Shown here one piece after another: positions 2,815 to 56,698 of a DNA stretch of 64,000 nt (the stretch's first letter is position 1; each line of letters begins with the position of its first letter). Both the position numbers and the translations under genes were made by a program. Origin of the DNA: Stentor roeselii (taxonomy: Eukaryota > Ciliophora > Heterotrichea > Heterotrichida > Stentoridae); the NCBI GenBank assembly GCA_006503475.1, contig RSEH01000258.1:1-64000 (forward strand). Reading direction: 5' to 3'. Under the pieces are notes generated by a model. That model was given only the letters and a program-made list of their open reading frames with translations. It searched no databases and had not been told where the DNA came from.

Positions 2815-3376
2815 TATATTTTTTGTCTAATTTTCTTAAATATCAATCCATATATATGTTATTATCCCAGTCATTCAAGCTGCACAGTACTTCGTTTTCG
2901 AGAATCCTATTTAAGATTAATCATTAGTTCATAGATGCTATGATTAAAATTACATCTATTCTTTTGTTTAGAAAGTAACTTCTTGATAAGTGAAGCTACT
3001 TTAGATGTGAGTTTAATTTTTAAGTTATTAATACTGAGGTAAGTTTGATTCCTTGATTGATGTGAGTTTAATTTTTAAATTATTAATACTGAGGTAAGTT
3101 TGATTCCTTGATTGATGTGAGTTTAATTTTTAAATTATTAATAGTGAGTTTTTATTATAATTTTGAAATCAACACCTTTATATAGTAATAATCATTTTCC
3201 AATATGATCATTTTTCTTTAATTGACGAAACGAATGTGTTTATACTTAGAATTTTTTTTAAGGTTTAATCTTCCGGTAGCTAGACTACTAAGGAACATTT
3301 TCAAATCTAATTGAAATTAGTTATTTAATCAATTTGTATTATCCAGGGATAAATTTAATTGAAAAAGAAGAGATAA
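2815..3376. other. Gene-free spacer containing a 55-bp tandem repeat
   Basis: This lies between convergent genes and has no open frame of note. It carries the 55-bp tandem repeat listed separately. Confidence 0.6.
3004..3150. repeat. 55-bp tandem repeat, about 2.6 copies
   Basis: Units start at 3004, 3059 and 3114, each with GATGTGAGTTTAATTTTTAA or a one-base variant. The first two copies differ at one or two bases and the third is partial. This is a simple recent tandem duplication. Confidence 0.9.
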
Positions 3377-6300
3377 CTAAATTAATTTATTTTTTGAGTT
3401 CATGATTTCTAGTATCTTGCAAAGCTGGGAATTGATCTCATTAATCTTTTTAGAGCTCTCATCAAATTTTTCATCTATTTTTTCAATCTTTTTAGTGTTT
3501 TCTTCAATCTTTTTAGTGTTCTCATTAAACTTTTCATCAATTTTCTCAATTTTTTTAGTGTTCTCATCAATTTTTTCATTCATCTTTTTATTAACCTGGT
3601 CGATCTGAATCCCTATTTCATCAATTCTGTTCTCTTGTCTTTGTTCTGAATACATTAATCTCCCTTGCCAATCTTCATTTTCTCCTCTATTATCAAATTG
3701 ACTTTCAAGAAAGTGAACAAAATACCAATTATTCAACTGTTTGTTCCAAAAGAGAGCAGTTTGAACTTCTAATGCAAGAGAAATTCGTTCCTTATAATCA
3801 ATCATATTTTTATCTAAAGAAAACTGATCATAGCTATCTCCAAGTATTGAAATAAGCATATTCAACATCAGAATTAAATTAAAAATAGTTGATAAAAATA
3901 CGATAAAGAAAATGATTCCATGTTGACTTTCTATTCCAGTATCCCCTCCAACACTAAGAGCCCATGATTTTTTTAGAACATCAAAATAGTTTGAGTTGTC
4001 TTCTTTATCATTCAAGAGAATGATATATAAGAGTAATGAGAAAAAGAGGGTAGAGTAAATGAATATGATCAAAAAGTATTTGATATTATTCAATGACTGG
4101 AAGATTAAACGAATGTAGTGTCTAGTCCCGTTGAATATTCTAAATGAAGCTATTCCTCGGATCATCAAGAGTATAGCAAGAATCAAATCGGTATATAGTA
4201 AGTCGATTTTTAAAATTCTAAAAGTACTCCAAATAGGTGTCAAAATTAAGAGCATAGCATCAGCGATATTCCAAGGATTGAAGTAATATTTTTTGTAGTT
4301 AGATCTGATCTGTAAAACTTCCCAAATAAATATAAAGCAATAGGTTACCCAGAATGGAATCATATAATATAATGAGGTATTATGAATAAATGATAAGCCA
4401 TAAAACACTATGTGAAACCAGATTAATATTGAATACGTAGCAACCCATTTATATACTGATATCCAATTATAATCTATGAAGTATTGTATCAGAGGATCGT
4501 CATAAATTTTTTTATTGGAACAATTCAATAAAACTTGAAGTGCTTCTATATTCTCTTGCGAATAAGGTTGAATTGGTAATGGTATTGCAGTATGCTTCAA
4601 GACGCTACTAATCATTTTAAGATTTTCATTAAATTTTTTATTGAATTTTTCTTTGAATTCTTCAAATCTAGGATTTAAAGTTTGCTTGATAAAATAAATA
4701 GGTAGATTTGCTGACATAGGTACTTCCAACTTATTTCTTGCCTCCAAAACTATTTTAGATAAATAATTTGGTATATTTATAGATGAAGTTTCTATGATCA
4801 AAAAAAAGTCATTTCTTGTTGAGTGTAAACTGCTTATTAGCTTGTATTTATCTTTCTCATCAAGATCAATCAAATACAACAACACAATTTCAAAGCAATC
4901 TATCTGTTTATTTATAATTGCATAGTAAAGAGGAGATTTCCCAAATACATCAGCCATAATTATTACTTTTACTTCAGTTTCGTTAATAAGTAATTTTTTA
5001 AGTGATTTTGAATCACCATGAATACAAATAAAATGAACAATAGTATATTTGTATTCAGAAATCAAAACATTGCAGTTTTTTTGTAACAGTTTTGTGTAGT
5101 TATTAAATTTTACTGCTTCCAATGAAAAGTAATATGTAGCTCCTTCATAGCAAAAATGGTCACTTACTGAGTATGGTCTGAAAATACCATCTGAAGGAAC
5201 AACTTTAGAGTCAATATCTATTATAGTGTTGTTTATATTTTGATAGCTTAGAAGATCTTTATATATCTTATTCTGAATTAGAGGTTTATCTAAGATAAAT
5301 GTAACTCTTACTGAATTGATTACAAGTGTCAGCTCTAGATTTTCATATTTTTCTATTTGAAAATATTGTAGCTTGTCGTTTGAGCAATATATTTCAAAAC
5401 CATTAAATCTGTGAACAATTGTATAATTACCATTTTTATTTATATTTTGTTTTTTTTGCTGATCACGTAAAACCTCTAATTTGGTTTTTTCTTCTACTTG
5501 CTCAACAAATATAAAAGACTCTTGCTCTGTAAATGGAAAATTCATTTGATCGTTTTTAGTATAGGTATCTGTAATATCATTATCACCGTTAAATACCTTT
5601 TGCTTTTCTTCAATTATATGATTTATTTGGTCTTTATTTTTATAAATTTCTGAAAGTTTCCAAATCTTGATAACTCCTTCATTAAGTCCAACAGCGAAAA
5701 CTTGATCTATCCTTGAAAAGCGAACACATTGAACATGGCTTGAATACACTTTACTAAAGAGTAAAGTCTTCTGATTAATATCCCAAACTTTGAAGGTTTT
5801 ATCTAAAGAGCCTGAGATCAATAGAGCTCCATCTTTAGATATTGATACTGAAGTGATTTCTTTAGAATGATCTGTGAATGTAGCTAAAGAATATTGGCTT
5901 TCAATACTCCAGACTCTTACTGTGCTGTCAGATGATCCTGAAGCAAATAAATTTCGAAAAGTTGAAAAACTTATCGAATTTACGGAATTGAAGTGTTCAT
6001 CAAATTGAAATTTTAATAGTCCTTCTTGCACACTCCATATTTTAATGCCTCCATCAAGTGAACCAGAAGCTAGAAGTTCATCATAAAATGAAAAGCACAA
6101 AGATTTGACTGAGGATTGATGCCCTTCTAGTTGGTAATCTATACTCATTTCTTCAAGTTTCCATAAAGTAATAATTGAATCTTCAGAACCTGAAGCAAAA
6201 TATATTCCTGAATTACTGAAACAAGTTGAAGTTACCTGGTTTTGATATTGAATATGTTGATATTCTTTATTTTCTTGAATATCGAATAGCGTTATATCAT

Positions 6301-9300
6301 GTTTGGATAGCCCAAATGCAATTATTTTCCCATCATTTGAGAAGCTAGTGGATTCAGGGTAGCCTTCTAGATCACAAAAGAAATTGATAGTTTCAAGTTT
6401 GGATATTCTTATCGAATTTTTTAATGAATTTCCTGATGTAAATAGATCTAAATTTGAAGAAAAACAGATAGAAAAATTATTTTCTTGTTTCGCTTCCAAA
6501 ATGTCAAAGTATCTCAAAGAGTCTGAATGCCCGGTAAATTCTTCTCGTTGTTCTTTTAAACTCCATACTTTTACTGTATAGTCTCCAGACCCAGAAGCTA
6601 AAAAGTTCCCATCAGTTGAGAAAGAAACAGAATAAACACTCTTCAAATGGTTTCCTGTGAATTGTTCTCGTTTTTCTATCAAATTCCATACTTTAACTGT
6701 ATTATCTGCAGATGCTGAAGCTACAAAATTTCCATCAGATGAGAGGCAAACAGAATAAATGCTTCCTAAATGGTTTCCAGAAAATTCTTCTCTTTTTTCT
6801 TTTACATTCCACACTTTTACTGTGTTGTCGTTAGATCCTGAAGCTACAAAATTGCCATCAAATGAGAAAAAAACAGAATAAACACGCCCTGAATGGTTCC
6901 CAGTAAACTCTTCTCGATTTTCTTTTAAATTCCATATTTTTACTGTCTTGTCATCAGATCCTGAAGCTATGAAATTCCCATCGCATGAGAAACAAACAGA
7001 TCTCACATTGGCAGAATGGTTTCCTGTAAATTTTTCTTCTTTTGATTGTAAATTCAATACTTTTACTGTATTGTCTTCGGATCCTGAAGCTACAAAATTA
7101 CCGTCGAATGAGAAACAAACTGAATATACAAATTTAGAGTGGCTTCCAGAATATTCTTCTTGTTTCGTTTTTAAATTCCATACTTTAACTGTATTATCAT
7201 TAGATCCTGATGCTACAAAATTCCCATCAGATGAGAAACAAACAGAATTCACATAATTTATATGGTACCCAGTAAATACTTCTTGTTTGTCTTTAAAATT
7301 CCAAACCTTTACTGTGTAATCAAATGATCCTGAAGCTACTAAATTTCCATCAGGCGAGAAACAAACAGAACAGACGGCACCTGAATGTTCTCCAGTAAAC
7401 TCTTCTCGTTTTTCTTTTACATTCCATACTTTTAATGTCTTATCGTCAGATCCTGAAGCTACAAATTTCCAATCAGACGAAAAACAAACACATAAAACAC
7501 TCCCTGAATGATTTCCAGTGAGATTTTCTCTTTTTTCTTTTAAATTCCATACTTTTACTGCTTTATCGTAAGATCCTAAGGCTAAAAAATTCCAATCATA
7601 TGAGAAACAAGCAGATCTTATAGAAGATGAATGGTTTATCGTAAATTCTTCTCGTTTTTCTTGTATATTCCATACTTTTACTGTATTATCGTCAGATCCT
7701 GAAGCTACAAAATTTACATCAGATGAGAAACAAACAAAATAAACACTTCCTAAATGGTTTCCTGTAAAATCTTCTCGTTTTTCTTTTATATTCCATACTT
7801 TTACTGTCTTGTCTCCAGATCCTGAAGCTACAAATTTTCCATCTGATGAGAAACAAACAGAGTTCACATATTTTGAGTGGTTTCCAGTGAACTCTTCTCG
7901 TTTTTCTTTCAAATTCCATACTTTTACTCTCTTGTCTATAGATCCGGATGCTGCGAAACTCCCATCAAATGAGAAACAAACAGAAAGAATACCTGATGAA
8001 TGGTTTCCTTTAAATTCTTCTCTTTTTTCTTTTAAATTCCACACTTTTATTGTTTGGTCGTCAGATCCTGAAGCTGCGAAATTTCCATCAGATGAGATGC
8101 AAACAGATCTCACACAATTGAAATGACTTCCAGAAAATTCTTCTCGTTTTTCTTTTACATTCCATAGTTTTAATGTTTTGTCTCCAGATCCTGAAGCTAC
8201 AAAATTTCCATCAGGTGAGAAAAAAACAGAATAAACGCGATCTAAATGGTTACCAGAAAATTCTTGTCGTTTTTCTTTTAAATTCCATACTTTGACTGTC
8301 TTGTCGTTAGATGCTGAAGCTACAAAATTGCTATCATATGAAAAACAAACAGAATTAACAATATCTGAATGGTTTCCAGTAAACTCTTCTCTTTTTTCTT
8401 TTACGTTCCATACTTTTACTGTTTTGTCATCAGATCCTGAAGCTACAAAATTCCCATCTGATGAGATACAAACAGAATTAACACTCCCTGAATGGTTTCC
8501 AATAAAATCTTCTGGTTTTTCTTTAAAATTCCATACTTTTGCTGTCTTATCTCCAGAACATGAAGCGATAAAATTTCCATCAGATGAGAAACAAACAGAT
8601 TGGACATAATTTGAATGGTTTCCTGTAAATTGTTCTCGTTTTTCTTTAAAATTCCACACTTTGACTGTCTTATCATCAGATGCTGAAGCTACAAAATTTC
8701 CATCTGATGAGAAACAAACAAAATTAACAATATCTAAATGGTTTCCAGTAAAATCTTCTCGCTTTTCTTTTAAATTCCATACTTTAAATGTCTTGTCATC
8801 AGATCCTGAAGCTACAAAATTTCCATCATATGAGAAGCAAACAGAATTGACAGGACCTTTATGGTTCCCATTAAATTCTTCCTTTTTTTCTCTTAAATTC
8901 CATACTTTAACTGTTTCGTCGTCAGATCCTGAAGCTACAAAATTTCCATCAGATGAGAAACAAACAGATCTCACATATTCTGAATGGTTTCCAGTGAACT
9001 CTTCTCTTTTTTCTTTTATATTCCATACTTTTACTGTTTCGTCGTCAGATCCTGAAGCTACAAAATTTCCATCTGATGAGAAACAGACAAAATTAACAAT
9101 TTCTGAATGGTTTCCGGTAAAATCTTCTCGTTTTTCTTTTATATTCCATACTTTGACTGTATTGTCGTCAGATCCTGAAGCTACAAAATTTCCATCAGGT
9201 GAGAAACAAACAGAATTGACTGGGCCTTTATGTTCTTCGTTAAATTCTTCTCGATTTTCTTTTAAATTCCATACTTTGACTCTTTTGTCCATGGATCCTG

Positions 9301-9667
9301 AAGCTATGAAATTCCCATTAGATGAAAAACAAACAGATAAAACACTCTCTAAATGGTTTCCAGTTAATTCTAAACGATCCTCAATAAGGTTCCAGACTCT
9401 CAAAACTTTATCATCTGATCCAGTAGCAACAAATCTTCCACAATTAGAGAATGATACCGAATTAACATTTGCACCATGCTGAAATTCGACATACGGGATC
9501 GCTCTGATCTCAGATATCTTTCTCTTTATGCAATAGTTAAGGTACTCGCTAAGCTTCGTTGATGTTGCTTTCTGCGATAAACTTGAAGTATTAATGCTCT
9601 TGACTGAATCTCCAGGTACTACCTTGCCTACAGCGCTTGCACCATATTGAGGTCCAAAATAACTCAT
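3377..9667 (-). CDS. Giant WD40-ankyrin-TRP-type cation channel fusion protein (2,096 aa)
   Basis: Residues about 60-1342 form roughly 31 WD40 repeats of about 42 aa; the first 24 are very alike (typical blade end TVKVWNLKEKREEFTGNH). After a linker come two ankyrin-like units (about 1542-1600, with SPLYYAI). Residues about 1732-1940 hold six hydrophobic segments, a pore region with GGDTG, and a last helix running LNMLISILGDSYD, which matches the S6 end of TRPV-type channels (LNLLIAxMG). A charged coiled coil of KIEKIDEK-type heptads fills about 2022-2090. The expected role is a gated cation channel whose large cytosolic propellers sense or scaffold; that is inference. The order ankyrin, 6TM, coiled coil is TRP-like, but a 31-blade WD40 head is not part of any TRP family I know. 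The frame is a single exon ending at TAG with no breaks. Repeat units are close at DNA level (period 126 bp), suggesting ongoing duplication or conversion. Confidence 0.93.
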   Translation of the reverse strand: MSYFGPQYGASAVGKVVPGDSVKSINTSSLSQKATSTKLSEYLNYCIKRKISEIRAIPYVEFQHGANVNSVSFSNCGRFVATGSDDKVLRVWNLIEDRLELTGNHLESVLSVCFSSNGNFIASGSMDKRVKVWNLKENREEFNEEHKGPVNSVCFSPDGNFVASGSDDNTVKVWNIKEKREDFTGNHSEIVNFVCFSSDGNFVASGSDDETVKVWNIKEKREEFTGNHSEYVRSVCFSSDGNFVASGSDDETVKVWNLREKKEEFNGNHKGPVNSVCFSYDGNFVASGSDDKTFKVWNLKEKREDFTGNHLDIVNFVCFSSDGNFVASASDDKTVKVWNFKEKREQFTGNHSNYVQSVCFSSDGNFIASCSGDKTAKVWNFKEKPEDFIGNHSGSVNSVCISSDGNFVASGSDDKTVKVWNVKEKREEFTGNHSDIVNSVCFSYDSNFVASASNDKTVKVWNLKEKRQEFSGNHLDRVYSVFFSPDGNFVASGSGDKTLKLWNVKEKREEFSGSHFNCVRSVCISSDGNFAASGSDDQTIKVWNLKEKREEFKGNHSSGILSVCFSFDGSFAASGSIDKRVKVWNLKEKREEFTGNHSKYVNSVCFSSDGKFVASGSGDKTVKVWNIKEKREDFTGNHLGSVYFVCFSSDVNFVASGSDDNTVKVWNIQEKREEFTINHSSSIRSACFSYDWNFLALGSYDKAVKVWNLKEKRENLTGNHSGSVLCVCFSSDWKFVASGSDDKTLKVWNVKEKREEFTGEHSGAVCSVCFSPDGNLVASGSFDYTVKVWNFKDKQEVFTGYHINYVNSVCFSSDGNFVASGSNDNTVKVWNLKTKQEEYSGSHSKFVYSVCFSFDGNFVASGSEDNTVKVLNLQSKEEKFTGNHSANVRSVCFSCDGNFIASGSDDKTVKIWNLKENREEFTGNHSGRVYSVFFSFDGNFVASGSNDNTVKVWNVKEKREEFSGNHLGSIYSVCLSSDGNFVASASADNTVKVWNLIEKREQFTGNHLKSVYSVSFSTDGNFLASGSGDYTVKVWSLKEQREEFTGHSDSLRYFDILEAKQENNFSICFSSNLDLFTSGNSLKNSIRISKLETINFFCDLEGYPESTSFSNDGKIIAFGLSKHDITLFDIQENKEYQHIQYQNQVTSTCFSNSGIYFASGSEDSIITLWKLEEMSIDYQLEGHQSSVKSLCFSFYDELLASGSLDGGIKIWSVQEGLLKFQFDEHFNSVNSISFSTFRNLFASGSSDSTVRVWSIESQYSLATFTDHSKEITSVSISKDGALLISGSLDKTFKVWDINQKTLLFSKVYSSHVQCVRFSRIDQVFAVGLNEGVIKIWKLSEIYKNKDQINHIIEEKQKVFNGDNDITDTYTKNDQMNFPFTEQESFIFVEQVEEKTKLEVLRDQQKKQNINKNGNYTIVHRFNGFEIYCSNDKLQYFQIEKYENLELTLVINSVRVTFILDKPLIQNKIYKDLLSYQNINNTIIDIDSKVVPSDGIFRPYSVSDHFCYEGATYYFSLEAVKFNNYTKLLQKNCNVLISEYKYTIVHFICIHGDSKSLKKLLINETEVKVIIMADVFGKSPLYYAIINKQIDCFEIVLLYLIDLDEKDKYKLISSLHSTRNDFFLIIETSSINIPNYLSKIVLEARNKLEVPMSANLPIYFIKQTLNPRFEEFKEKFNKKFNENLKMISSVLKHTAIPLPIQPYSQENIEALQVLLNCSNKKIYDDPLIQYFIDYNWISVYKWVATYSILIWFHIVFYGLSFIHNTSLYYMIPFWVTYCFIFIWEVLQIRSNYKKYYFNPWNIADAMLLILTPIWSTFRILKIDLLYTDLILAILLMIRGIASFRIFNGTRHYIRLIFQSLNNIKYFLIIFIYSTLFFSLLLYIILLNDKEDNSNYFDVLKKSWALSVGGDTGIESQHGIIFFIVFLSTIFNLILMLNMLISILGDSYDQFSLDKNMIDYKERISLALEVQTALFWNKQLNNWYFVHFLESQFDNRGENEDWQGRLMYSEQRQENRIDEIGIQIDQVNKKMNEKIDENTKKIEKIDEKFNENTKKIEENTKKIEKIDEKFDESSKKINEINSQLCKILEIMNSKNKLI
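6541..9360 (-). repeat. Intragenic array of about 22 near-identical 126-bp WD40 repeat units
   Basis: Inside the channel gene the 126-bp unit recurs with few changes. On the plus strand each unit shows GATCCTGAAGCTACAAAATT, then GAGAAACAAACAGA, then GGTTTCC. Variation is concentrated in the few codons after the conserved NH (GNH) dipeptide. Flanking WD40 units are far more divergent. Confidence 0.9.
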
Positions 9668-12836: not shown

Positions 12837-14749
12837 ATGGAAAGTCTGACGTCAGATTCAAGAAAATATAATTGCATTTGTCAAATATATCTTATTCCAG
12901 CTAAAGATTTAAAAGAACACTTAAGGAAGCCTTTAAATCATAAAGTTGTCCCTAATCAAATCAATTTGGTTTTGGAATTATATATCATATAAAGCTCTCG
13001 ACTATGTAATTCTTTTTCATATAAATTCAAAATCATGTAAAAATCAAGATTCAATTGAAATTCCTAATTCATTTGACATAAAAACGAAAACTAATCAATC
13101 AAATATCTCTTCTTAAATAATGAATAGACTTAACAGACAAGTATTAAAAGAAATTTCAGTATTTAAACTTTTAAAACGTAAAATTAATTTGAATTTTAAT
13201 CAATTCTTTAAAAATCGAATTCAAAGCATTTATTCACTTTGTCTTTCTCAAGATAAGAAAGTTCTCATCATTGTAGGGTATGATGGAAAAGTCAGTTCTG
13301 GGACCCAATAGAACTTTATCAAAATGCATGTCTTTCATATCACAAGTCATATATTTGGGCTCTTGATATTGATTCATCATCAAAATATGCACTTTCCGGT
13401 AGTGGCGACTGCTCAATTTGTTTATGGAATATTAAAAAAAATCAAAACAATCTTTAAGGGCTATAAAGAGCATGTCAATGCCATAAAGTTTAAAGGTCCA
13501 AATATTTTTGTCAGTGGATCAGATGACAAAACCATCAGAATATGGAGAATTTATACACCTTCACTAATTCGTGAGATCTCAGCAGATTCATTAATAAAAT
13601 TCATTTCATTCGAATACAAAACTCAATTATTAGTTGTTGTGTATGAAGATGGATGCATTCAAAACATTAATCCAAACAAGCGATATCCTTTGAAAAAAAC
13701 TTACTTTAAAACAGGTGTTATTTGCAGTATTTTAGCTGAAGAACTTCAGATCCTGGTAACTGGACATAAAAATGGATTAGTGCAGTTTATATATTCAAAA
13801 ACTCTTCGTTTGTTGAAAAGTTCAAAACTTCACTCTGATAAGGTAAATTTAATTGATTTTTGTGGAAACGCTCAAATAATTGCAACGTGCTCAGATGATT
13901 TTCAATAAAACTATGGTGTTCAAATTCTTTTCAAGTTAAAAAATCGTTTGATCACTTTCGCAATAAAATCATAAGTGTTCAAATTTCGAATAATAGCCTT
14001 TACTTCGGAGGGCATGATTGTCAGATCGGAATGCTTAATTTTAATGATTTAACAACGAATACAACTGAAATAAAAAAATTGATCAAAATTGTTTTTGTGT
14101 ATCAATTAAATTGAATTTGATTGTTTATGGATATGATAAAATTTACTTCTTTAGTTTGAAATCATTGAACGATATAAAATCGATAAACTTTGGTTGTGAA
14201 ATCAAAAGTTTATGTCTTTTGAAGTCGATATTAGTATGCGAAACTATTAAAGGTGATATTTTGGTTGTTGATTATTGTAATCAAGAAATAAAGAGCAGGT
14301 ATTATTTTGGAAATTCTATCATTTATTTTGTTTGTTTATCAAGAGATTTGAAAATTCTGTGTTTTTCCACTCAAAATAAATCAAAAATGATTAAATTGAG
14401 GTCATCTAAAGGTTTATTAGACTTACCGCATAGAATAGTTTCAGGTAAGTTTTCATCGAATTGTTTTGTGTTTTTAGATTTGAATTGTGATGTTTTTGTT
14501 TATGATAAGTCTGGTAAATTATTGAAAATAGGAAGATATTATGGCATTCAATTTTATTTTTGTAAGGATTTGAATTTTATATTGTTTAAAGATTTTCTTT
14601 CAAGATATTCTTTGATAGATTTGAGTGATGGAAGAATGACTGGAACTAGTGAAAGGCTGAGTGAAATCTTTAAAAACAAAAAAAATCTCAGAATTTGCAA
14701 AGAATCATTGATTTTATCATCTTTTAGATTTAATTACTATCTTAACTAA
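12837..14749 (+). pseudogene. WD40-repeat protein, paralogue 2, with several frameshifts
   Basis: The start at 12837 encodes ESLTSDSRKYNCICQ, matching the N-terminus of the paralogue at 890. The match continues through WD40 blades (FWDPIELYQ, ICLWNI, IRIWRI, IKLWCS) to the C-terminal region ending at 14749 (LILSS near the end in both genes). Continuity needs about five frame changes (around 12990-13120, 13297, 13440, 13905 and 14100) and there are extra stops. None fits a 15-nt intron, which would not change frame. It is therefore a dead copy. Several segments stay open for 60-210 codons, so decay looks fairly recent. Confidence 0.85.
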
Positions 14750-15300: not shown

Positions 15301-18300
15301 ATGGCCGAAGAAGATAAACAAAAAATTTTCAAAGCTTCTGAAGATAAAAGTCTTAAAGACCTTATTTTAACAGCAGAATCCGAAGTGACTAATAAAATCA
15401 GTAGATTCCCTTCACTATTAAATTCTTCACAAACAAATAATCAATCCTTTTTCCAAGAAATAGATACCAAGATAGCACAAAAATTGAAAAAAGGTATCAA
15501 GCTTACCAATAATTTAAATACAATTACCCCTATTGCAATTTCAATAAACTATAAATATATTGCAAGAGTTTCTAATTCCAATTCAATTTTTATTTGGAAA
15601 CTGAAATATCTAAAAAAACATTTCAAATTTCAAGGTCATTCCTCTTGTATTAATGCCTTATGCTTCTCTCAAGATTCAAGGTTGATTGCAAGTGCAGGTG
15701 ATGACCGTTTAGTAAAAGTTTGGAATATTAAAGATAAGTGCCAAGAAGCTATTATTTACATTCACTTCTTTACTGTAGACTATGTTCTTTTCGCGAATGA
15801 TCAAAAATTTCTTGCAAGTGCAGGAGATTTGAGCATAAATATACTGAACTATGGAGAAAACTTCGATAGTTTTACCTTAGGTAGTCATGATATGAAAGTA
15901 AAATCTATCGCAATCTCACCAGACTCCAATTTTTTAGCAAGTTGTTCAAAAGACTGCATTCGGATGTGGAATCTTCATGAAAAAAGAGAATTTTATAATT
16001 TTCAAGCTATTTCTATTTTCCTTTTATTTCATCCAATTCAAAAATTTTTAATATCAAGTTCCAACACTTCTAAAATCGTGATCTGGAACTTGGAAACTAA
16101 AAGAACAGAAGAAATTTTAAATGGGCATAATGGTTCTGTGAATTTTATCAGTTTTTCAAATGACGGTGACTTAATGCTTAGCAGTTCAGTTGATAAATGT
16201 ATCAAGATATGGGATTTCATGACCTTTAGTGAAAAATTCAACTTTTACTTCAAGTCATCAACAATTTCATGTGCACTTTTTTTACCAAATAATTTATCAA
16301 TAGTGTCTGTGACAAGAAATAGCATTATCCGAGTTTGGGACTTTAATGATAAAACAGAACTTTATTGTCTAAATGGACACAAGGCTGAAGTCAATGCAAT
16401 CAGTTGCTATCCTGATGGACAGTATATTGCGAGTTGTTCATCAGACTGCACCATTAGACTCTGGAATTTAAAAGAAAAAGTAAAAGAATTTTTGTTTCCT
16501 ATTCAAAAATCAGATGTTCTTACTGTTAACTTTTCAAAAAATGGGAAACTCATTGCATGGGGATCTGGAAATACTTTGAATGTTTGGAGTTTAAGCGCGA
16601 TGAAAGAAAAGTTGAAAATTAAAGGAAAATTTCATTTAATAACATCAGTTGTATTCTCACCTAACTCAAATTATATTGCAAGTTCAGGAGACACTACCAT
16701 TAAAATTTTTAACGTTCAAAGGAAAGAAGAAGAATTTCTGCTTCAAGGCCATTTAAAATCAGTGAACTCCCTTTGTTTTAGTCCTGAAGGTAAATTATTG
16801 GCAAGTGGTTCGAATGATAAAACTATTAGAATTTGGAATTTTGAAGAAAGAAATTTAGAATTTATTCTCTTAGGACATTTAAATCCTGTGAATTCAGTTA
16901 ATTTTAATGCAAATGGAGACTTTCTTGCTAGTGCCTCTGATGATACTACAATCAAAATATGGAACTTGACTGAAAGAAGGCAAGAATTTTCACTTAAAGG
17001 CCATTCTAAACCAGTGAAAACTGTTTGTTTTTCTCAAAATAACAAGTTAATAGCAAGTGGTTCAGTTGACTCCAAAATAAAAGTTTGGAATTTTGAAAAA
17101 AAAATAGAAATTTTCACATTTTCCAGTCATTTTTCATCAGTTTTATGTGTTTGTGTTTCACAGGACAGTAAGTATCTTTACTCTGGGTCAGAAGACAAAA
17201 CGATAAAGGTCTGGGATATAGAAGAACCAAATGAAGATATCAATTTTTGTACCCATTCAAAAAGAGTGACTTCACTAAACTTTTCCCCTGATAACCTGCT
17301 AATCCTAAGCGGGTCTGAAGATTCAACTATTAAACTTTGGAATCTGAATAATAATGAATTAGAAACATCTTTCAATAATCATTCAGATACTATAAATTTT
17401 GTTATCTTTTCTCCTGATGGATCTTTGATTGCAAGTTGCTCAGATGATTGTAAAGTTTTAATCTGGAATGTTAATAAGAAAAAATTAGATTTTGAACTTT
17501 TTGATCATAAGGGTCCAGTTAACTGTATAAGTTTTTCACCAGATAGTTTATTTATTGCAGATTGTTCAGATGATACTACATTAAACATTTGGGAATTAAA
17601 AACTAGAAAAGTAAAAACTTCTTTCAAGGGTCATTTATTGAGTATCACATGCATTTCGTATTCTTCTGACGGCAGGTTCATTGCGAGTGGCTCATACGAT
17701 AATACTTTAAAATTATGGAATATTCAATCATCAGAGTTGGAATTTACATTCATTGGCCATTCATCTTTTGTAAATACTCTTTGTTTTTTACCAAACGAAA
17801 AGTATATCATCTCTGGTTCACGTGATAAAAAGTTAAAAGTATGGAGTTTGAAAACTCGAAAAGAAAAATTTACTCTTGAAGGTCATTCAAAGTCAGTTAA
17901 ATCTGTTTGTGTATCTTTTGATGGATGTTTTATTGTAAGTGGTTCAGCAGATAAGTTGATAAAAGTTTGGAATTTCTATGAAAGAAAGGAAGTGTTTTCA
18001 ATTAACGCGCATTCAAATTCAGTTAAAACTGTCTGCATATCTCCTGATGGCAGTACAATCGCTAGTGCATCAACTGACTCTAAAGTAAAACTCTGGAAAT
18101 TCAACCTATATAAAAAATCCATAAATGAAAACCCGAAATGTTCTTTAAAACAAGGGAAATTTACACCATTTAAAATCCAATTAGGTCGAAAAGTTCTTTC
18201 AATTGCCTCTGAAATGCAAGAGAAACTATTTTATCCTATTATAAAGAACTCTACAAAAATACTGGAATATTCTGATTTGATTAAAATTCTCTCTACAGCT

Positions 18301-19281
18301 AACAAAATATATGAAAAATCAAAAAGAAAATTAGGAGCGTTGTCTGAGTCTTTTTGGATAAAGAATAAATCAGAAGATTTCAGCATAAATGAAGGACTTT
18401 CTGCAGTGATTTTAAATCTTGCTAAAAATCTTTTAGAAATTTACAAAATTTCTTTAGTTCATGAATCTTTTCAAGGTAAAAAGAACTTTAACTTGATCAA
18501 GATTTTAACAAACTGCATAAACAGCAGGAAGTTGATTCCTTTTTATATAACAGGACTTGTCCTATTCACAAACTTTCAAGATTACAACGCATTTGAAAAC
18601 GAAATAGATTTTTGGAGCAGTTTTACTTATTCCAAAACTACCAGAATGAATGAAAAGGAATATGCAAGATCATTTCTTTTAAACATTCTTAATACTTCAT
18701 ATTTACAAAATTTTTATCTAGAAATAATAAAACCATTCACTGATCTTGAAAAAGTGATTTCTGATGCAATTAACAGAACTTTTATTGTAACTAGTGGATT
18801 AAAAGAGTATGGTGTTGATGGCTTAACAACATATGAACTCTTCATTTTTATACGGAAACTTGGTAATGACCCAGAACAAGAAAAGTTCTCAACTTTTTAC
18901 GTTTTCTTGCATGAACTATGCCATTTCTGTCGAAGGTATTTTTGCCAATCAAGAAGAGATTCACTAGAATGCCGTAGTCAAGTTACTAATTTTAATTCGG
19001 AGAAGGTTGAAGATTATGGATATATCTTCGAGTTTAAAATTTTTGGATCTCCTCAAAGGTTCATTAATCCAGAAGCTGGAGATTATTTGTTTGCCAAAAG
19101 TGGAATATCTGAAGAAGAACAGATTCAGTTTTATGAGGAAAGAACTCTTGAAGATTTTCAAAAAGGCTTTCTGGATAAAAATAAAACGAAAGATGTACAT
19201 GCTGTTGAGTTATTTCGAAGAAGGGAGAATCTTCCTCCGGGCTATGTTAGTTTTTTGGGATGTGGCTTTAGAAGACGTTGA
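15301..19281 (+). CDS. WD40-repeat protein with C-terminal HExxH metallopeptidase-like domain (1,326 aa)
   Basis: Residues about 80-940 hold 21 WD40 repeats, enough for three seven-bladed propellers (blade ends such as IRIWNFEERN, IKVWDIEEPN, LKLWNIQSSE). These repeats are more diverged from each other than those of the channel gene. A helical region (about 950-1190) leads to FLHELCHFCRRYF, in which HELCH (1204-1208) is the zincin HExxH motif. About 36 residues on, VEDYGYIFEFKIFG places a glutamate (about E1244) as a likely third zinc ligand, as in gluzincin-type proteins with an E-G..FE..IFG run. The C-terminus is short and basic (GFRRR) and ends TGA then TAA. I infer a cytosolic metalloprotease carried by WD40 propellers; activity is not proven. 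The start follows a typical A-rich context (ATAAAATGG). Confidence 0.9.
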   Translation: MAEEDKQKIFKASEDKSLKDLILTAESEVTNKISRFPSLLNSSQTNNQSFFQEIDTKIAQKLKKGIKLTNNLNTITPIAISINYKYIARVSNSNSIFIWKLKYLKKHFKFQGHSSCINALCFSQDSRLIASAGDDRLVKVWNIKDKCQEAIIYIHFFTVDYVLFANDQKFLASAGDLSINILNYGENFDSFTLGSHDMKVKSIAISPDSNFLASCSKDCIRMWNLHEKREFYNFQAISIFLLFHPIQKFLISSSNTSKIVIWNLETKRTEEILNGHNGSVNFISFSNDGDLMLSSSVDKCIKIWDFMTFSEKFNFYFKSSTISCALFLPNNLSIVSVTRNSIIRVWDFNDKTELYCLNGHKAEVNAISCYPDGQYIASCSSDCTIRLWNLKEKVKEFLFPIQKSDVLTVNFSKNGKLIAWGSGNTLNVWSLSAMKEKLKIKGKFHLITSVVFSPNSNYIASSGDTTIKIFNVQRKEEEFLLQGHLKSVNSLCFSPEGKLLASGSNDKTIRIWNFEERNLEFILLGHLNPVNSVNFNANGDFLASASDDTTIKIWNLTERRQEFSLKGHSKPVKTVCFSQNNKLIASGSVDSKIKVWNFEKKIEIFTFSSHFSSVLCVCVSQDSKYLYSGSEDKTIKVWDIEEPNEDINFCTHSKRVTSLNFSPDNLLILSGSEDSTIKLWNLNNNELETSFNNHSDTINFVIFSPDGSLIASCSDDCKVLIWNVNKKKLDFELFDHKGPVNCISFSPDSLFIADCSDDTTLNIWELKTRKVKTSFKGHLLSITCISYSSDGRFIASGSYDNTLKLWNIQSSELEFTFIGHSSFVNTLCFLPNEKYIISGSRDKKLKVWSLKTRKEKFTLEGHSKSVKSVCVSFDGCFIVSGSADKLIKVWNFYERKEVFSINAHSNSVKTVCISPDGSTIASASTDSKVKLWKFNLYKKSINENPKCSLKQGKFTPFKIQLGRKVLSIASEMQEKLFYPIIKNSTKILEYSDLIKILSTANKIYEKSKRKLGALSESFWIKNKSEDFSINEGLSAVILNLAKNLLEIYKISLVHESFQGKKNFNLIKILTNCINSRKLIPFYITGLVLFTNFQDYNAFENEIDFWSSFTYSKTTRMNEKEYARSFLLNILNTSYLQNFYLEIIKPFTDLEKVISDAINRTFIVTSGLKEYGVDGLTTYELFIFIRKLGNDPEQEKFSTFYVFLHELCHFCRRYFCQSRRDSLECRSQVTNFNSEKVEDYGYIFEFKIFGSPQRFINPEAGDYLFAKSGISEEEQIQFYEERTLEDFQKGFLDKNKTKDVHAVELFRRRENLPPGYVSFLGCGFRRR

Positions 19282-45444: not shown

Positions 45445-47244
45445 TTACAGGTCTTTCGTGGGGATCTTCTTCTTGCGGACCTCGAAGTTGAGTTCTTTTT
45501 TCCTGAGTCTTATGGACTTCGGAGTGACTTCGACCAGTTCGTCTTCATTGATGTAAGCCACAGCTTCTTCTACGGTAAAGACTCGATGAGGACTTAGTTT
45601 CGAGTACTCTTCTTTTTGAACACTTCTTACATTTGTCAGTCGTTTTTCCTTTCCAGGATTTAACAAAATCTCATTGTCCACCTGGGTCTCTCCAATGAGC
45701 ATGCCTTCATAGACTGTGATTCCTGGATAGACAAAAGCTGTTCCTTTCTCTTCAAGATGAGAGATTCCGTATTCAGTACAAACAGCTTTTGAAGTCGATA
45801 CCACGACTTTAGAGTTCCTTCTTTTCAAGGCGCCTTTGTAAGGCTGGTAGTCAAAAATATGAGACTCGATCGTGATGTTGCCTTTGGTCAACCCGAGTAA
45901 AATCGGCTTGAAACCCATCATAGTTCGAGTCGGACAGTAAAAAATAAGTCTTGTATGAGTTGAAGAGATTTCTTTCATATCTTCAAAATGTGCAAGTCTC
46001 GTTAAAAACTGCTCAGTTACTGAAGTTTGGAATTCATTTGGCACCTCAACAATCACTTCTTCAATAGGCTCTAAAATATTCCCTTCATTGTCTTCTTTAG
46101 TTACAATCATCGGAGCTTCAATGGCGAGTTCGAAGTCTTCTCTTCTCAGCTGTTCAATTAAAATTCCTAAATGAAGTTCTCCACGTCCAGCGATTTCGAC
46201 GTATCCAGGAAATTCTTTTACTTTAAGTGCCAGGTCATTTTCAGCTTCTTGGAAAAGTCTTTCTTTTAAAAACAAAAAAGATGTTTTTTTGCCTTCTAAG
46301 CCGTTTAAAGGTGAATCATTTACTCTAATACGCAAGGTGATTGTAGGTAAGTCGATAGGATGAGCTTTGATGACTTGTTGACTTTCTGGAGAAGAAATAG
46401 TGTCGTTTACCAAGGCCTGTACCCCTGCAATAGTGATGATGTCTCCAGCGATGCCTTTGTTTATCTCGACTTTTTCCTGTCCGACCATTTTAAAGATAAT
46501 ATTCGCTTTGCCTTTTAAGTCTTTTCTGCCAGGAACGTGAATTGAGTCCCCGACGTTTATTTCGCCTTGTTGAACTCGCCCGATTAGAAGTTTGCCGTGA
46601 TAGGTGCTGTTCTCGGTCATGGAGACCAACATTCGGAAAGGACCTGATTCTGTTTCTTTTGGAGGAGGAATGTAGTTTATTATCTTCTCGAGAAGAGGGT
46701 CGCAGTTCTGCCTTGGACCGTTCACTGATGTGTCAACCCAACCTGAACGACCTGATGCGTAGAGGATCGGGTAGTCCAGAAGATCTTCTTTTACGTCTAG
46801 GGAACAGAATAAGTCGAAGATCTTGCCTTCTACTTCACCGGGACGAGATGTTTGACGGTCGAGCTTGTTCATTACTACTATTGGACGAAGACCTGCACCT
46901 AAGGCTTTTTGGAGAACGTATCTTGTTTGGGGCATTGGACCTTCGGTTGCGCAGACTACGAGTAAGACTCCATCAACAATGCTCATGACTCTCTCAACCT
47001 GTCCTCCGAAGTCAGCGTGACCTGGCGTATCAACGAAGTTAATGAAATAGTTCTTATATGGGATCCCTGTAACTTTCGACAATATCGTAATTCCTCGTTC
47101 TTTCTCAAGGTCTAGGGTGTCCATCGACGTTACTTTCGATCCCATTTGCTTCAGGATAGAATCAACCAAAGTAGTTTTTCCGTGATCGACGTGAGCGATG
47201 ACTGCAAGGTTACGAAGAAACTTCTGACTTAGGCCTGAAAGCAT
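45445..47244 (-). CDS. typA: TypA/BipA translational GTPase, probably mitochondrial (599 aa)
   Basis: Ribosome-binding GTPase of the EF-G family. Motifs: G1 AHVDHGKT (17-24), G2 RGITI (50-54), G3 DTPGH (72-76) and G4 NKLD (126-129). The order of domains and the length match bacterial TypA/BipA (about 600 aa), and the C-terminal end carries the usual [11 protein letters not shown]. The bacterial type and the presence of an RbfA-like gene nearby suggest action on the mitochondrial ribosome. The N-terminus before G1 is only 16 residues ([16 protein letters not shown]), short but Arg/Ser-containing and free of acids. Single exon, TAA stop. Confidence 0.93.
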
Positions 47245-47791: not shown

Positions 47792-50700
47792 TTAAGCTTG
47801 TATAATGTCCACTTTCGAAGTCTGCACCGATTTAACAAATTGCAAAGCACGTATCTTTTCAAGTTTCCTATAAACCCTAGCCACTCCTTTACAAAACTGG
47901 TAAAACCCAACAGCAGTCTGAAAAACCATAACAAAAACAACAGTAAAAATAAAAACCATCTCCAATATTTCACTTCTATTCTTTCCACCCAAGGCAAGCA
48001 TAAGATCCACAACAAAAGCAACCAAACATCCAATTTCTCCAAAAAACGACGACAACAAAATAGAATTTTCCTTATAAGGTCTAAAAGCAATCAAAAAAAT
48101 CATGATCAAAACAGTGAAACCAATATGAACACCAGACTTAAAAGCAGGCCAAGGTTCAAGATAAAAGTGTGCAAGGACATAAGAAAGCCTTCTAATAAAG
48201 AAAATCGTGTAATACTGTGAACTAAGAAATCCTTTATCATTTTTGAACTCATAAAACAAAGACCCATACATCGATTCAAATTCAGAATCCTCTGCATCTT
48301 GAAGGCGATTCATCGAAACATAACTAGAAATAAACAAAAAAGGTGAAGTCAGCGTTACCATCAACTAAATAACTCTTACCATGCAAACAGTCGCTGAAGC
48401 CAAGTTGAAATACCCAGCTTCTGGTTTAATTATCTCTGACCTCATCTGAATCAAGCTAAAAATACTAAGATCAAGGTAAGTTTGTATCCAAAACCTCAAA
48501 AAAAGTCCATATTTATAGTTTTTCAGCACTTTAAACAAAGTAAGAGCGATTTTTCCATAAGTCACTTTCGACAAACATCTGATAAAAGGATACAAAGCGA
48601 TTAAAAACACTAAAAACCCCAGATTTTGCCCTCCATTAATCCAGAAAACAGAAGAATCGATGCCTGCCTCTCGTTGCGACCTGCTCGGGCTACCTGAGGT
48701 CGACTGAGAAAAAATAAAAAGCATCGGATTCGGCAGAAGGTTGAAGCCTGTTAAAGCTGTGCAAAAGTCGCGTATCAAGAAGGTCAAGTTATTTTCACTG
48801 AGAGGCAAGTACATCACAAGTTGCAGGGTGTTAACCAAAATCCACGCTGAAGCTGGATTCGAGATGATTGAAACTCCAACTGCTGATGATACTGAAACTT
48901 GACTTAAAGACCTGGAAGACTGAATGATTTGATTTAGGACTTCATTTGTTTTGTTTAGGTGAAAACTTTCGAGAAGTAGTGATTTTTCGTAGTTGAGAAG
49001 AATTGAACCTGAATCACTTTTTATTGGGTTTTTTAAGATTTTTAAAGAAAATAAGGTGTTGTTGGAGAAACTTTCTCTTGGGTTTAAGGATATGATGTAT
49101 TTTTTTCGGGTTATATTTGTGAAGGTATAGGAAAATTTTAAATTTTTTCCGATTTTTATCTTGAATTCTGAACGTTTTAAGGAATTTTCTAGTTTTTCGG
49201 TAAATGTGATAAAAATTCGAGTGGAGTCTTTGGAAATTGAAAAGTCAAAGTACCGAATTATGCAGGTTTTTTTAGATTTTGTGGAATTTCTGCTACATTC
49301 GCAGAGACCTTCTACCAGTTCAGCATTTTCAGAGCAAGAAGTGCAAGTGGTGAAATTTTTACAATCATTGCATAGTTCAGGACATTCCTGGCAGTTTCCA
49401 AGTAACGAATCAAAAAATGTCCCTTTCTGGCATTTTTTTAGACATTTTCCATTAATTTGATCAGCATAGTGTTCTTGATTCAAACAAGTAATACAAAAAG
49501 TTTCATTTCTGCAGGTGTTGCATGGATTTCGACATCGAAGACAGTCATCGCCTCCAGGCTGGGCATAAAACCCTTGATCACAAACGCAGAGGTTTTCATT
49601 TTTATGTTGATTTTCCCTGCAAGGTGTGTAACAGCCTCCAGTTTCTTTTTCAGCAATTTGAAGAGGATTGATACAACTGATACAAAATTGAAGATTTTTA
49701 CATGTTTTGCAAGGATCTTGACAAATTTTGCATTCAAGTAAACCGGTTTCTGAGTAGCTTGAATAAAAGCCTTCAAGGCAAGTGCATTTTTGATTATTTA
49801 ACTGAGACCCAGCAGGACATTCACAACTTGAATGATTATTTGGAAGACTGTCTTGAGCTAAGCATGTCAAACATCTTTTTTCATCACAAGTCAAGCAAGT
49901 TACATCACAAGATAAACATTCATCAAAAGAAGATAAAAAAAACCCTTCAGGACATTTGCAAAAATTTTCATCATTTGTAACAATCAAGTTATTTTTGCAC
50001 TCATCACATGAAAAAGGGTCAGAACACCGAAGACATTTTGAATTACAAGAAAAACAATCATTATTCAACAGGTAAAAACCACTTTCACAAGAGCAGACTC
50101 CTTTCAAATCAGCAGTCAATTTTTTATTCAAGCAACTTAAACAAAAATTCAAACTTGTGCAGTCATCACAAAAACCCTGGCAATTCAAACATTTCCTTAA
50201 AGTTCCAGATTCAACTGACAGATAAAACCCTTTCTTACATTCACAAGACTTCCCATCAAAAACTGCATTCAAATCTTTACAACTATCACAAGTCGCCACA
50301 TCAGAGCAAGTGCTACAAATATCAAGACAACCTTCACAACTCCATTCATCAGTCAAACTTCCTTTCAAGTAAAATCCAGAAAGACATTCACATTTCCCAG
50401 AACTATTTAAAATCGAGTTACTTTTCGTGCAAAGACTTACACAAGGACTTGCATCAGTGCATTGACTACAAGAACTATCACAAGCTTTACATGCATCAGA
50501 AGAGTCCAGCGCAGGGTTCAAAGTAAAAAACTTTTCTTTACATTTACATCCTTGAAAGCCATTCACTTCTGCATTTTCAGCTTTACATTCATTACAAGAG
50601 TAAGAATTTGAACAAGTTTTGCAATGATTGTGACATTTTAAGCATTTATCTGATAATGCGATTTCGTAGAAACCTTCTCCGCATTTACAGACTCCTGATG

Positions 50701-52357
50701 AAAAGGTTGAGAATTGCTTTTTGCAGACTTTGCAAGATGTGGAATTTTCACATTCTTGACATATTGACATGCAGACTTGACAGGCGCTTTTGGTTGTTAA
50801 TGATAAGGAAGAGAAGAAGCCTGGCTTGCAGATGCAGATGTTGTTGAAGATTATTGTGTTGTCTGAAATGCAGCTTGTGCATGATGGACCGTTGCAGGAA
50901 CTGCAGGTTGGCCCACAGGTCAAAGGAGATGTTGAGTCACAGGAAGTAACTTGGACTTTTGGATAGGTGCCGTAGTATCCGTAGTTGCATTGACAACCAC
51001 CGTTGCTTGAATAGGATTTAGGAGAATAGCAAGTTGCACAACTGGAGGCATCTCCACAGGTTTTGCATTCAACATTGCAGGCTTTGCATGCAGTTGCTGT
51101 CGTTAAAGGAGGGGTTCCAAAGTAGCCATCCTTACATTTGCATCCGGTAGTGGTTGAGGGCACAGCAAAAGTAGCTTTACAAGTAAGACAAATACTATTA
51201 TTGCTACAAGTAGCACATTCCTGCTGACAAATCACACAAGACCCAGCGACCAAGACATGATTTCCACCATACCCATTTTTACAAGAGCATCCAATAGAAG
51301 CAACAACAGCATTCGAATCAGCACAATTAGAGCATTTTTCTGAATAAGAACTGACACAACTGCCACATTCTAAATAACAACATCCACTACCAACTATTCT
51401 ATGAGTAGAAACACAAGAATTCACTAAAGAACTAGCAGATCCTAAGCTTAAATCACTAAAACAACTGATAATCCCTGCAGGCGTGTTGAGTAGACATGAA
51501 AGAGAATCACAATTCATACATTTCAAAGCAATTCCCGCAGAACAAGCAGTTCCAGAAGGACAATCAAAAGACCTAGAGTCCTTATTCGGGTCATTTTCAA
51601 CAGAAATGCATCCTTCAGCACTTCCAATAACAACAGCAGGGAAGCAAGAAGATTCACAAGAATCAAAAAGTGTAAGACAAGCAGAAGAGACTTTCATAGA
51701 AATGTAACTAGGCGTGTTTAATGACTCTGAAATCGAAAAAAGCGCAATAAACCCTTTAATCGTATCTTCCGTCACATGCCCCAAGCAAGAAGAATAATCT
51801 CCTGACTCAGAAAATGCAAAAGTCGATTGTCCAACCTGCTCTAAATTCTTCAACAAAGTAAAAGTATCAGAAATCTTCGTAACTGCAACTAACACCCAAA
51901 AAGCTGATTAAAGTTTACAAGAAGGAAAACTTTTTGATTGTCCTGATATTGTGAAAGTGAAAGATTTTGTGTATTTTAATTCAAGAATTTCATTTTGCTG
52001 TTTACGAGAAATTGTCAGTCGTGATGATGGGTTTTGTACTCTGTCGAATAGGATCCCGTCTTTCGTGTCTTCTACTTTTGTCCAGGCTTGGATTGAAAAA
52101 GATGAAGGGAATGATAAAGGTGATGATGAATAGTCATTTTGGGGAAGTTTTACTTGGCTTCCTGAACCTTGGAAAAATATTCCTCGGTCTGAGGGATTCA
52201 CGTTTGAGGATTCGGAAGTTGAACTGTCGCCGTTTACTCCGTGATTGTTATTACCTGAGAAATCTCGGAAGACTTCTCCGAAATTTTGTAAAAAACGATA
52301 TTCAAGCAGGGCTGAAGATATAATAGAAAGAAAAGTGAGGTGAAATAAATTCAACAT
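47792..52357 (-). CDS. Cysteine-rich LamG multi-pass membrane protein A (1,511 aa, three exons)
   Basis: Exons 52357-51919, 51903-48380 and 48364-47792. A signal peptide (LNLFHLTFLSIISSALL) is followed by a LamG/ConA-like domain (DFSGNNNHGVNGD start) to about residue 230. A long furin/growth-factor-receptor-like array of C-x2-C units follows (about 250-960; ETCATC/GCKCKDGY-type repeats of 45-50 aa), then a juxtamembrane beta domain and about eight transmembrane helices (SNPASAWILVNTLQL to the end). The last region (FFIRRLSYVLAHFYL, then FRPYKEN) recalls the membrane domain of fungal TRP-like/Flc-Pkd2 proteins, but that link is tentative. A cell-surface adhesion, sensing or surface-antigen role is likely. 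Both introns remove in-frame TAA or TAG. Confidence 0.88.
48365..48379 (-). other. 15-nt intron, shared position with paralogue B
   Basis: Minus-strand GTAAGAGTTATTTAG, after codons TGC ATG. It ends in an in-frame TAG. The downstream exon is 573 nt, exactly as in paralogue B. Confidence 0.95.
51904..51918 (-). other. 15-nt intron near the LamG domain
   Basis: Minus-strand GTAAACTTTAATCAG, containing an in-frame TAA. Splicing gives FPSSFWVLVAVT, aligning with FPSSNLYLETWVLISVT of paralogue B. Confidence 0.93.
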
Positions 52358-55600: not shown

Positions 55601-56698
55601 CAAAGGATGATTCCCTCCATACCCAGCAGGACAAGAGCATCTTCCAGAAGTACTGAGGACAGCACCAGTCTCAACACAACCTAAACATTTTTCCGAATAA
55701 ATCCCCTCACAAATAGTACATTCTTTATAACAGCATTTATTCGACAAAGCTCTATGAGTAATCAAGCAATCCTTTGCGATTTCCAAGGCAATTCCATTAC
55801 TAAGATCATTAATACATTTAACAATCAGAGTATCATAACTAATACTACATGATTTAGAAGCACATGATTGACAACTAAGCAAAAATCCAGCAGTACAAAA
55901 TTGCCCTGAATAACAAGTAAATGATCGAGAATCTTTATAAGGGTCGTCTTCAAGCGAGATGCATCCTGCAACGTTGTTGATGATGACAGCTGGATCACAA
56001 GGAAGTTGACAAGAATCTACAAGTGTCAAGCAATTCAAGGATTGTTGGAAATTTATAAAATTTTTTGGAGGAATAGTGTTTAATATTGAAAATGAAGAAA
56101 TGAATCCTTTTATTGTTGAAGAAGATTTATGACCGATGAATGTTGCTGTTGGGGTTGAATCGGAATAGGTTACTGTTGAGATGCCGACTTGGTTTTGGTT
56201 TTTTAGTAAATATATTTTGTTTGAAGAATAGGTCACTGATATTAGCACCCAGGTTTCTAAGTATAAATTACTTGAAGGAAAACTTGATACTGATCCGGAT
56301 ATTGGGGAAGAACTCCCGAGGATAACCTCTAGGACTTCATTGATTTTTGACCTTTTTATAGTCATTATAGGTGATCCACTATTTTCTCTGAGGTACAAAA
56401 TCCCATCATCAGTATCTTCAACTTTCGTCCAGCAGTCAATAGAAAAAGAGGTTGGCAAAGTTATAGAACTCGATAAATCATTTATCGGAGGTCTTACATA
56501 CGCTTGAGATCCTTTCAAAAACACTCCACGATCAGTACAATATGCATTATCATTTAAGGTATCCGACCGATCTCCATTGACTCCATGATTACCAGATCCT
56601 GAGTAATCATAAAAGACTTCTCCAAAATTAGTAAGAAATCGATACTCAAAGACTTGAGACAATGATAGCAAGAAGAAGCAGCTCAGTAACTTCACCAT
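52631..56698 (-). CDS. Cysteine-rich LamG multi-pass membrane protein B (1,350 aa, two exons)
   Basis: Exons 56698-53219 and 53203-52631. It has the same architecture as its neighbours: signal peptide (VKLLSCFFLLSLSQVF), then EYRFLTNFGEVF and the LamG-like domain with DYSGSGNHGVNGD. About 14 cysteine-rich units follow (for example CKTCGDANSCNSC), then an 840-990 beta region and about eight membrane helices (SNPASAWLLINTLQLILYL; FFIRRLAYILAHFYL). The single 15-nt intron lies after TGC ATG, the same site as in A. Protein B matches A far better in the LamG and membrane parts than in the cysteine array, as expected if the array adapts to ligands. Confidence 0.9.
53204..53218 (-). other. 15-nt intron, shared position with paralogue A
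   Basis: Minus-strand GTAATTTTTAGGTAG; its TAG pairs would otherwise end the protein before half of the membrane domain. Confidence 0.95.

Follow-up and report, generated by a model that had tools for sequence, protein, structure and literature searches.

The window analysed here comprises the first 64,000 nucleotides (forward strand) of contig RSEH01000258.1 from the heterotrich ciliate Stentor roeselii (assembly GCA_006503475.1). Near its left end, a single open reading frame (ORF) runs on the minus strand from 9667 to 3377, from ATG to TAG, through 2096 codons plus the stop and with zero in-frame stops; the plus-strand reading of the same interval is full of stops. A preliminary description of this frame had proposed that it joins about 31 WD40 repeats to ankyrin units, a six-helix TRPV-like pore domain and a coiled coil. 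The unbroken fusion and each of these parts were recovered in our analysis, as follows:

3377..9667, minus strand: whole ORF, WD40-ankyrin-six-transmembrane (6TM)-coiled coil, 2096 amino acids (aa) (ORF list and translation; paralogs)
6560..9511, minus strand: 24 regular 41-aa WD40 units, residues 53-1036, period 123 bp (TRF, 123 bp x 23.1; unit hidden Markov model, HMM)
5657..6559, minus strand: seven degenerate or 42-aa WD40 units, residues ~1037-1337 (Pfam and unit HMM; seven-way split by hand)
4850..5116, minus strand: ankyrin-like stretch, residues ~1518-1606 (Ank_2, E=2.8e-7; Ank_2 in paralog pieces)
3863..4444, minus strand: six membrane helices and pore loop, residues ~1742-1935 (family-averaged hydropathy; Ion_trans in paralog pieces; PDB profiles)
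3743..3865, minus strand: end of S6 and TRP-type helix, residues ~1935-1975 (pore profile aligned to TRPV3 across the helix; family alignment)
3380..3640, minus strand: C-terminal coiled coil, residues ~2010-2096 (hydrophobic period 3.50, equalled by 0/200 shuffles)

The figure of about 31 blades holds with some spread between methods. Pfam PF00400 marks 28 WD40 stretches in the protein and the unit HMM, which was built in this analysis from WD40 units, returns 32 pieces at a score above 0, of which 29 are above 5; counting by hand gives 31, namely the 24 regular units and the seven degenerate or 42-aa ones. One of the degenerate blades, which contains an insert, shows up as fragments. Downstream of the head, a Pfam search with the C-terminal 751 aa yielded the ankyrin match, Ank_2 being a three-copy model. 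Ten overlapping hydropathy windows above the cut-off were merged by us into six helices, near residues 1742-1760, 1767-1785, 1801-1819, 1824-1845, 1865-1883 and 1917-1935. A pore-like loop lies between the last two hydrophobic segments and, by eye, arginines are sparse in the S4 region. The heptad-like periodicity of the tail is common among the members tested, 21 of 25 being equalled by at most 4/200 shuffles and the other four by 7, 16, 16 and 38. No 15-nt intron-like stretch of the form GTA-N9-YAG was found within the ORF; three 16-nt intron-like stretches are present, and excising one breaks the frame.

A search of the 44.4 Mb assembly (522 contigs) with the C-terminal 711 aa gave 64 matches, consisting of 63 family rows, the window gene included, and a short second stretch in C27; all such counts are lower bounds. 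Of the 63 rows, 56 have frames without stops that reach 1084 aa or more, five carry stops and two are short. In each of the loci L039, L040, L041 and L042, at 84, 53, 31 and 35% identity, the WD40 units, an ankyrin-like part, the 6TM part and the coiled coil are all encoded in a single open frame. From 30 loci of this search, 26 were aligned (L014, L016, L020 and L027 were left out because of stops or truncation), and WD40 units lie in frame upstream in 25/25 of the aligned members with an upstream frame in the locus, the window gene included. The frame of the stop-free member L032 begins after a stop and contains no WD40 units. Three distant members, L069, L070 and L071 (26, 29 and 27% identity), all have WD40 heads: 13 unit hits in L069, where 14 units, or two seven-bladed propellers, are seen by eye; 11 in L070; and a weak head in L071, with four unit hits and a Pfam WD40 match at 6e-14. 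Thus, 28 of the 29 stop-free members examined, down to 26% identity, have in-frame WD40 units ahead of the channel. The 6TM part is under purifying selection, with ratios of nonsynonymous to synonymous divergence (dN/dS) of 0.14-0.35 in 15 pairs from six members.

Collectively, these loci form a multigene family, its products being predicted TRPV-class channels that carry WD40 heads. The paralogs exclude chance or an assembly artefact as the source of the fusion frame. Since the order is identical, and in a single frame, in paralogs down to 26-29% identity, separate genes for the WD40 and channel parts are likewise excluded at the DNA level. Members with at least 44% identity tend to lie near contig ends (12/16 within 10 kb, 6.7 expected) and those below 44% do not (1/13, 3.2 expected). 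Four members, on C427 (L039), C438, C403 (broken) and C146, sit at most a few kb from a contig terminus that consists of CCCTAACA telomere repeats. Such repeats are present at just some of the contig ends near members, and repeats also break assemblies; a subtelomeric placement would fit the exchange of units described below. Relatives were also sought in a prokaryote contig collection (genome_contigs; 585 pattern stretches) and a viral one (viral_contigs; 251 pattern stretches), and none was confirmed in either.

To which channel class the membrane part belongs is best seen in the pore. A profile that spans S5 through the TRP helix, built from 29 members and compared with the PDB, has TRPV3 as its top match (4.3e-7), so that TRPV is the nearest solved pore, and its alignment to TRPV3 extends across the TRP helix. 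Of the best 60 of 98 PDB matches, 57 bear the name TRPV. Two more, Inactive and Osm-9-like TRP channel 1, are likewise TRPV channels, and the last is an MBP-TRP fusion whose name is incomplete. In the 26 aligned members, Pfam recovers Ion_trans in 13 and Ank_2 in 18 at E<=0.01, the best Ion_trans value being 1.1e-10. These comparisons support a TRPV-class pore, at modest E-values, in line with the six-helix TRPV-like domain first proposed.

Several observations weigh against this assignment. Taken alone, the window protein has TRPV3 as its best channel match in the PDB at only E=0.004, and its C-terminal 751 aa do not reach Pfam Ion_trans. A profile of the whole 6TM region (26 members) is matched best by other channels, namely Kv1.3 (2.2e-5), CrTRP1 (3.3e-5) and TRPM8 (1.1e-4), and several Nav, Cav and PKD2L1 chains also outscore TRPV3 (0.009). 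On these scores, the whole-6TM profile settles the superfamily only and does not discriminate between classes; since it favours other channels, the TRPV assignment rests on the pore and the TRP helix. The N-terminal domain of TRPV channels usually has six ankyrin repeats, but a single Ank_2 match is seen here, and TRPVs are without the coiled coil. Single-sequence AlphaFold predictions, run with no alignment, were unusable both for residues 1507-1994 (488 aa; mean predicted local distance difference test score, pLDDT, 39.1) and for 627 aa of the WD40 array (pLDDT 35.7).

Within the WD40 head, the 24 regular units of the window gene have a mean DNA identity of 75%. We compared the arrays of four close paralogs (the window gene, L039, L047 and L048) and, over the six gene pairs, the best cross-gene match of a unit stood at the same index in only 12/136 comparisons, with about 6 expected by chance. 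Of the reciprocal nearest unit pairs, 14/18 lie within the same gene, in a sample of 100 units from six genes (23, 23, 21, 21, 11 and 1). A slight positional signal is left, same-index units being 0.009-0.017 more alike than different-index ones. Unit 1 keeps its position, at 85-92% DNA identity between paralogs, and the tail units stay in place as well, bar two comparisons at 0.48 and 0.50, in which the unit pattern failed to pick up the L047 tail unit around residue 1165. For units 2-24, positional correspondence between close paralogs is therefore largely lost, which is concerted evolution. The preliminary description, right about the fusion itself, had overlooked both this shuffling and homogenisation of repeats between copies and the large gene family.

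The size of the head is constant in some respects and variable in others. In all nine members of at least 51% identity with an array read (the window gene, L039, L047, L048, L040 and L072-L075), 24 unit hits come ahead of any gap or degenerate unit. Before the tail, L040 and L075 have another seven or eight units, and L072 and L073 are without the seven-unit tail. Five more distant members have 29 (L041), 22 (L042), 13 (L069), 11 (L070) and four (L071) unit hits. Among members read, heads range from about 14 units (L069) to 38 unit hits (L075), with L071 as a weak case.

Much of the variation among units falls at top-face positions. In the window gene the most variable are 15, 14, 33, 17 and 23, with position 35 about ninth, and nonsynonymous counts are highest at 14, 17, 33, 15 and 35 in a set of 88 units from four genes, which excludes unit 1 and any unit that the pattern failed to detect. 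WD40 proteins generally vary at top-face positions. In the HET-D/E repeats of Podospora, diversifying selection has been described at codons 7, 9, 25 and 27, on the top face of the propeller, which flank conserved codons 8 and 26 (PMC1805685, PMC2873952). With an offset of eight, these codons become unit positions 15, 17, 33 and 35 of the present family, flanking the conserved V16 and D34. This match is post hoc, since the variability was known before the papers and the register was chosen by us. The likeness is suggestive of a recognition role and no proof of one, because top-face variation is so general.

Selection was then assessed on 18 recent unit pairs. The ratio of nonsynonymous to synonymous differences (pN/pS) is 0.85 at positions 15, 17, 33 and 35 (p=0.67 against neutrality) and 0.69 once position 14 joins them (p=0.27), whereas it is 0.34 at the remaining 36 positions (p=3e-11); positions 11, 1, 7 and 23 also rank high in these pairs. 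The four top-face positions vary at about the neutral rate and the remainder is constrained. Neither of two tests detected positive selection at the variable positions, and no unit position had p_pos<0.05, a point against the model proposed below; weak selection may nevertheless act on them, because units recombine and because fast-evolving sites saturate the parsimony counts.

Taking these data together, we consider it probable that the gene encodes a TRPV-class cation channel subunit with a cytosolic WD40 propeller head, followed by ankyrin, six membrane helices, a TRP helix and a coiled coil. As membership of the WD40 family suggests, the approximately 31 blades of each subunit would fold as a chain of beta-propellers. 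The coiled coil probably holds four subunits together, and in such a tetramer about 124 blades (4 x 31) would face the cytosol. The pore would be re-entrant and conduct cations, probably Ca2+. The head may bind protein partners via its variable top faces, and binding or tension could pass through the ankyrin/pre-S1 region and the TRP helix, so that the pore opens. In that case, the main difference between paralogs would lie in the targets of their heads. The anatomy, the family, the selection and the exchange of units are demonstrated, whereas gating or scaffolding by the propellers, as put forward in the preliminary description, is inferred.

A stronger version of this model is doubtful: each paralog would display its own recombining WD40 top faces as a recognition repertoire, in the manner of fungal allorecognition NLRs, and ligand binding would open the attached TRPV pore. 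If true, the family would be a one-protein counterpart, in a single-celled eukaryote, of a receptor combined with a calcium-channel resistosome, and its possible roles would include recognition of mates, of self and non-self, of prey or of pathogens.

The main rival is a cytoskeletal tether similar to that of NOMPC (TRPN), in which 29 ankyrin repeats serve as the cytoskeletal anchor. The propeller chain would be such a long anchor, the channel would be opened by pull and the variation among units would be functionally useless. This explanation is possible, although we regard it as unlikely. The ankyrin part and the coiled coil are kept, and the constant first 24 units of the nine closer members suit an element of fixed length. 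Moreover, the ankyrin profile matches NOMPC at E=1e-13, though this match is generic, since designed ankyrins score higher. Microtubule binding is known for EML-type WD40 proteins (FAP16/EML, PMC5068960). On the other hand, the unit hits of the five distant members mean that length is not fixed family-wide, tens of paralogs are many for such a role, and much of the variation falls on positions that form a binding face in the Podospora repeats (PMC1805685, PMC2873952).

A second alternative, which we judge improbable, treats the WD40 array as a loose ornament: gene conversion would homogenise its units, the top faces would drift neutrally and the channel would work without its head. The neutral appearance of the four top-face positions, with or without position 14, agrees with this idea, as do L032, which is stop-free and starts after the head, and the stops in 5/63 family rows. 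Yet the other 36 unit positions are constrained, and the head is present in all but one of the members examined. Finally, that two genes were misread as one, or that the locus is a pseudogene, can hardly be correct, given the single frame kept across distant paralogs, the absence of a 15-nt intron candidate from the ORF and the low dN/dS of the 6TM part.

The surroundings of the gene contain further features. About 230 bp from its stop, beyond the 3' end, lies a 55-bp tandem repeat (3004-3148; 2.6 copies, 97% matches). The left end of the window is rich in WD40 sequence: 890-1999 and 13324-13908 (plus strand) are more WD40-containing ORFs, possibly parts of other genes, and 15301-19281 (plus strand) encodes a 1326-aa WD40 protein with about 20 units by the unit HMM. 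The C-terminal ~376 aa of the latter have no Pfam match at E<=0.01 and contain an HExxH-like motif, HELCH, so its product is possibly a WD40-metalloprotease-like fusion. At 45445-47244 (minus strand) lies a eukaryotic gene for a GTPase of the TypA/BipA type (PDB BipA, E about 1e-129), TypA/BipA being a bacterial ribosome-assembly factor. Elsewhere in the assembly, 16 stop-free ORFs of ~1400-1860 aa have four Ion_trans matches each (hand count), on C296, C55, C100, C91, C97, C46, C131, C80, C502 (two), C27, C83, C512, C249, C522 and C175; together they make up a large family of channels of the four-domain, voltage-gated type.

In Blepharisma, TGA is read as sense. The 28 ORFs of the window end in TAA (14), TAG (10) or TGA (4), and at least two of the TAG are intron ends. 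Indeed, two 15-nt GT..AG intron-like stretches with A at position 10 (48365-48379 and 53204-53218, minus strand) each end in an in-frame TAG; the first splits ORF 47792-48364 from 48365-51895, the second 52631-53200 from 53204-56698. Stentor introns of this form, 15 nt with A at position 10, have been described (PMC9505925). Repeats of CCCTAACA, the reported Blepharisma telomere unit (PMC9942806), occur at 6/20 contig ends examined. These features fit a Stentor-like heterotrich; a primer pattern for 18S rRNA found no match.

TRP channels are partly classed by their cytosolic head, for which the ankyrin solenoid is the textbook case. The family, with its 56 long open frames and the WD40 heads of differing size in the members read, would add a TRP class, and would provide a natural experiment on the influence of head size and binding on gating. 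Should the head be a recombining recognition surface, repeat-based recognition would be linked to ion flux within one protein. Heterotrichs are a classic system for work on cell behaviour, contraction and regeneration. The question of what the head does is testable, since RNA interference by feeding has been used in Stentor (PMC10762896).

Among the closest known systems is CrTRP1 of Chlamydomonas (PDB 6pw4, a TRP-like ion channel), a protist TRP that stands third in the whole-6TM comparison but is not among the best 60 of 98 matches to the pore and TRP helix. We know of no WD40 head in CrTRP1. In PMC5068960, a TRP (ADF1) and a WD40 protein (FAP16) are different genes. A nuclear proteome table of Oxytricha counts six proteins with a TRPV InterPro entry, five ion transport and 26 WD40-like proteins in its micronucleus-enriched set, and is silent on whether TRPV and WD40 occur in one protein (PMC9958989). 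Since this table does not state the overlap, relatives may already be present in ciliate databases without having been remarked on. Among the papers listed by searches of the open-access PMC library, none described a TRP or other ion channel with a WD40 head in a ciliate.

The fungal HNWD NLRs (Podospora HET-D, HET-E and HET-R) resemble the present family in that highly similar WD40 units are exchanged within and between genes, and in the variable unit positions, with spacings of 2, 16 and 2 around the same conserved residues (PMC1805685, PMC2873952). They differ in their effector, which is NACHT/HET there and a cation channel here; no NACHT/NB domain was found among the best 25 of 49 Pfam matches of the full protein, nor among the 13 of its C-terminal 751 aa. 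Repeat number varies in the fungi, whereas the first 24 units are kept in the closer members here, and the diversifying selection described there has no detected counterpart in our tests.

TRPN/NOMPC and TRPA1 have a TRP pore preceded by a very long head of cytosolic repeats, as does the family described here; theirs is an ankyrin solenoid, in contrast to the WD40 units, and neither channel appears among the best 60 of 98 PDB matches of the pore profile. The TRPV channels (TRPV1-6, OSM-9/Iav), which in humans sense heat and touch, share with it the first-ranking match over pore, S6 and TRP helix, as well as a cytosolic ankyrin part before S1. What sets the present family apart from them is the 31-unit WD40 head, the single Ank_2 match and the C-terminal coiled coil. 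The TRPV class of pore is thus a known one, the type of head on it is new, and the family is large.

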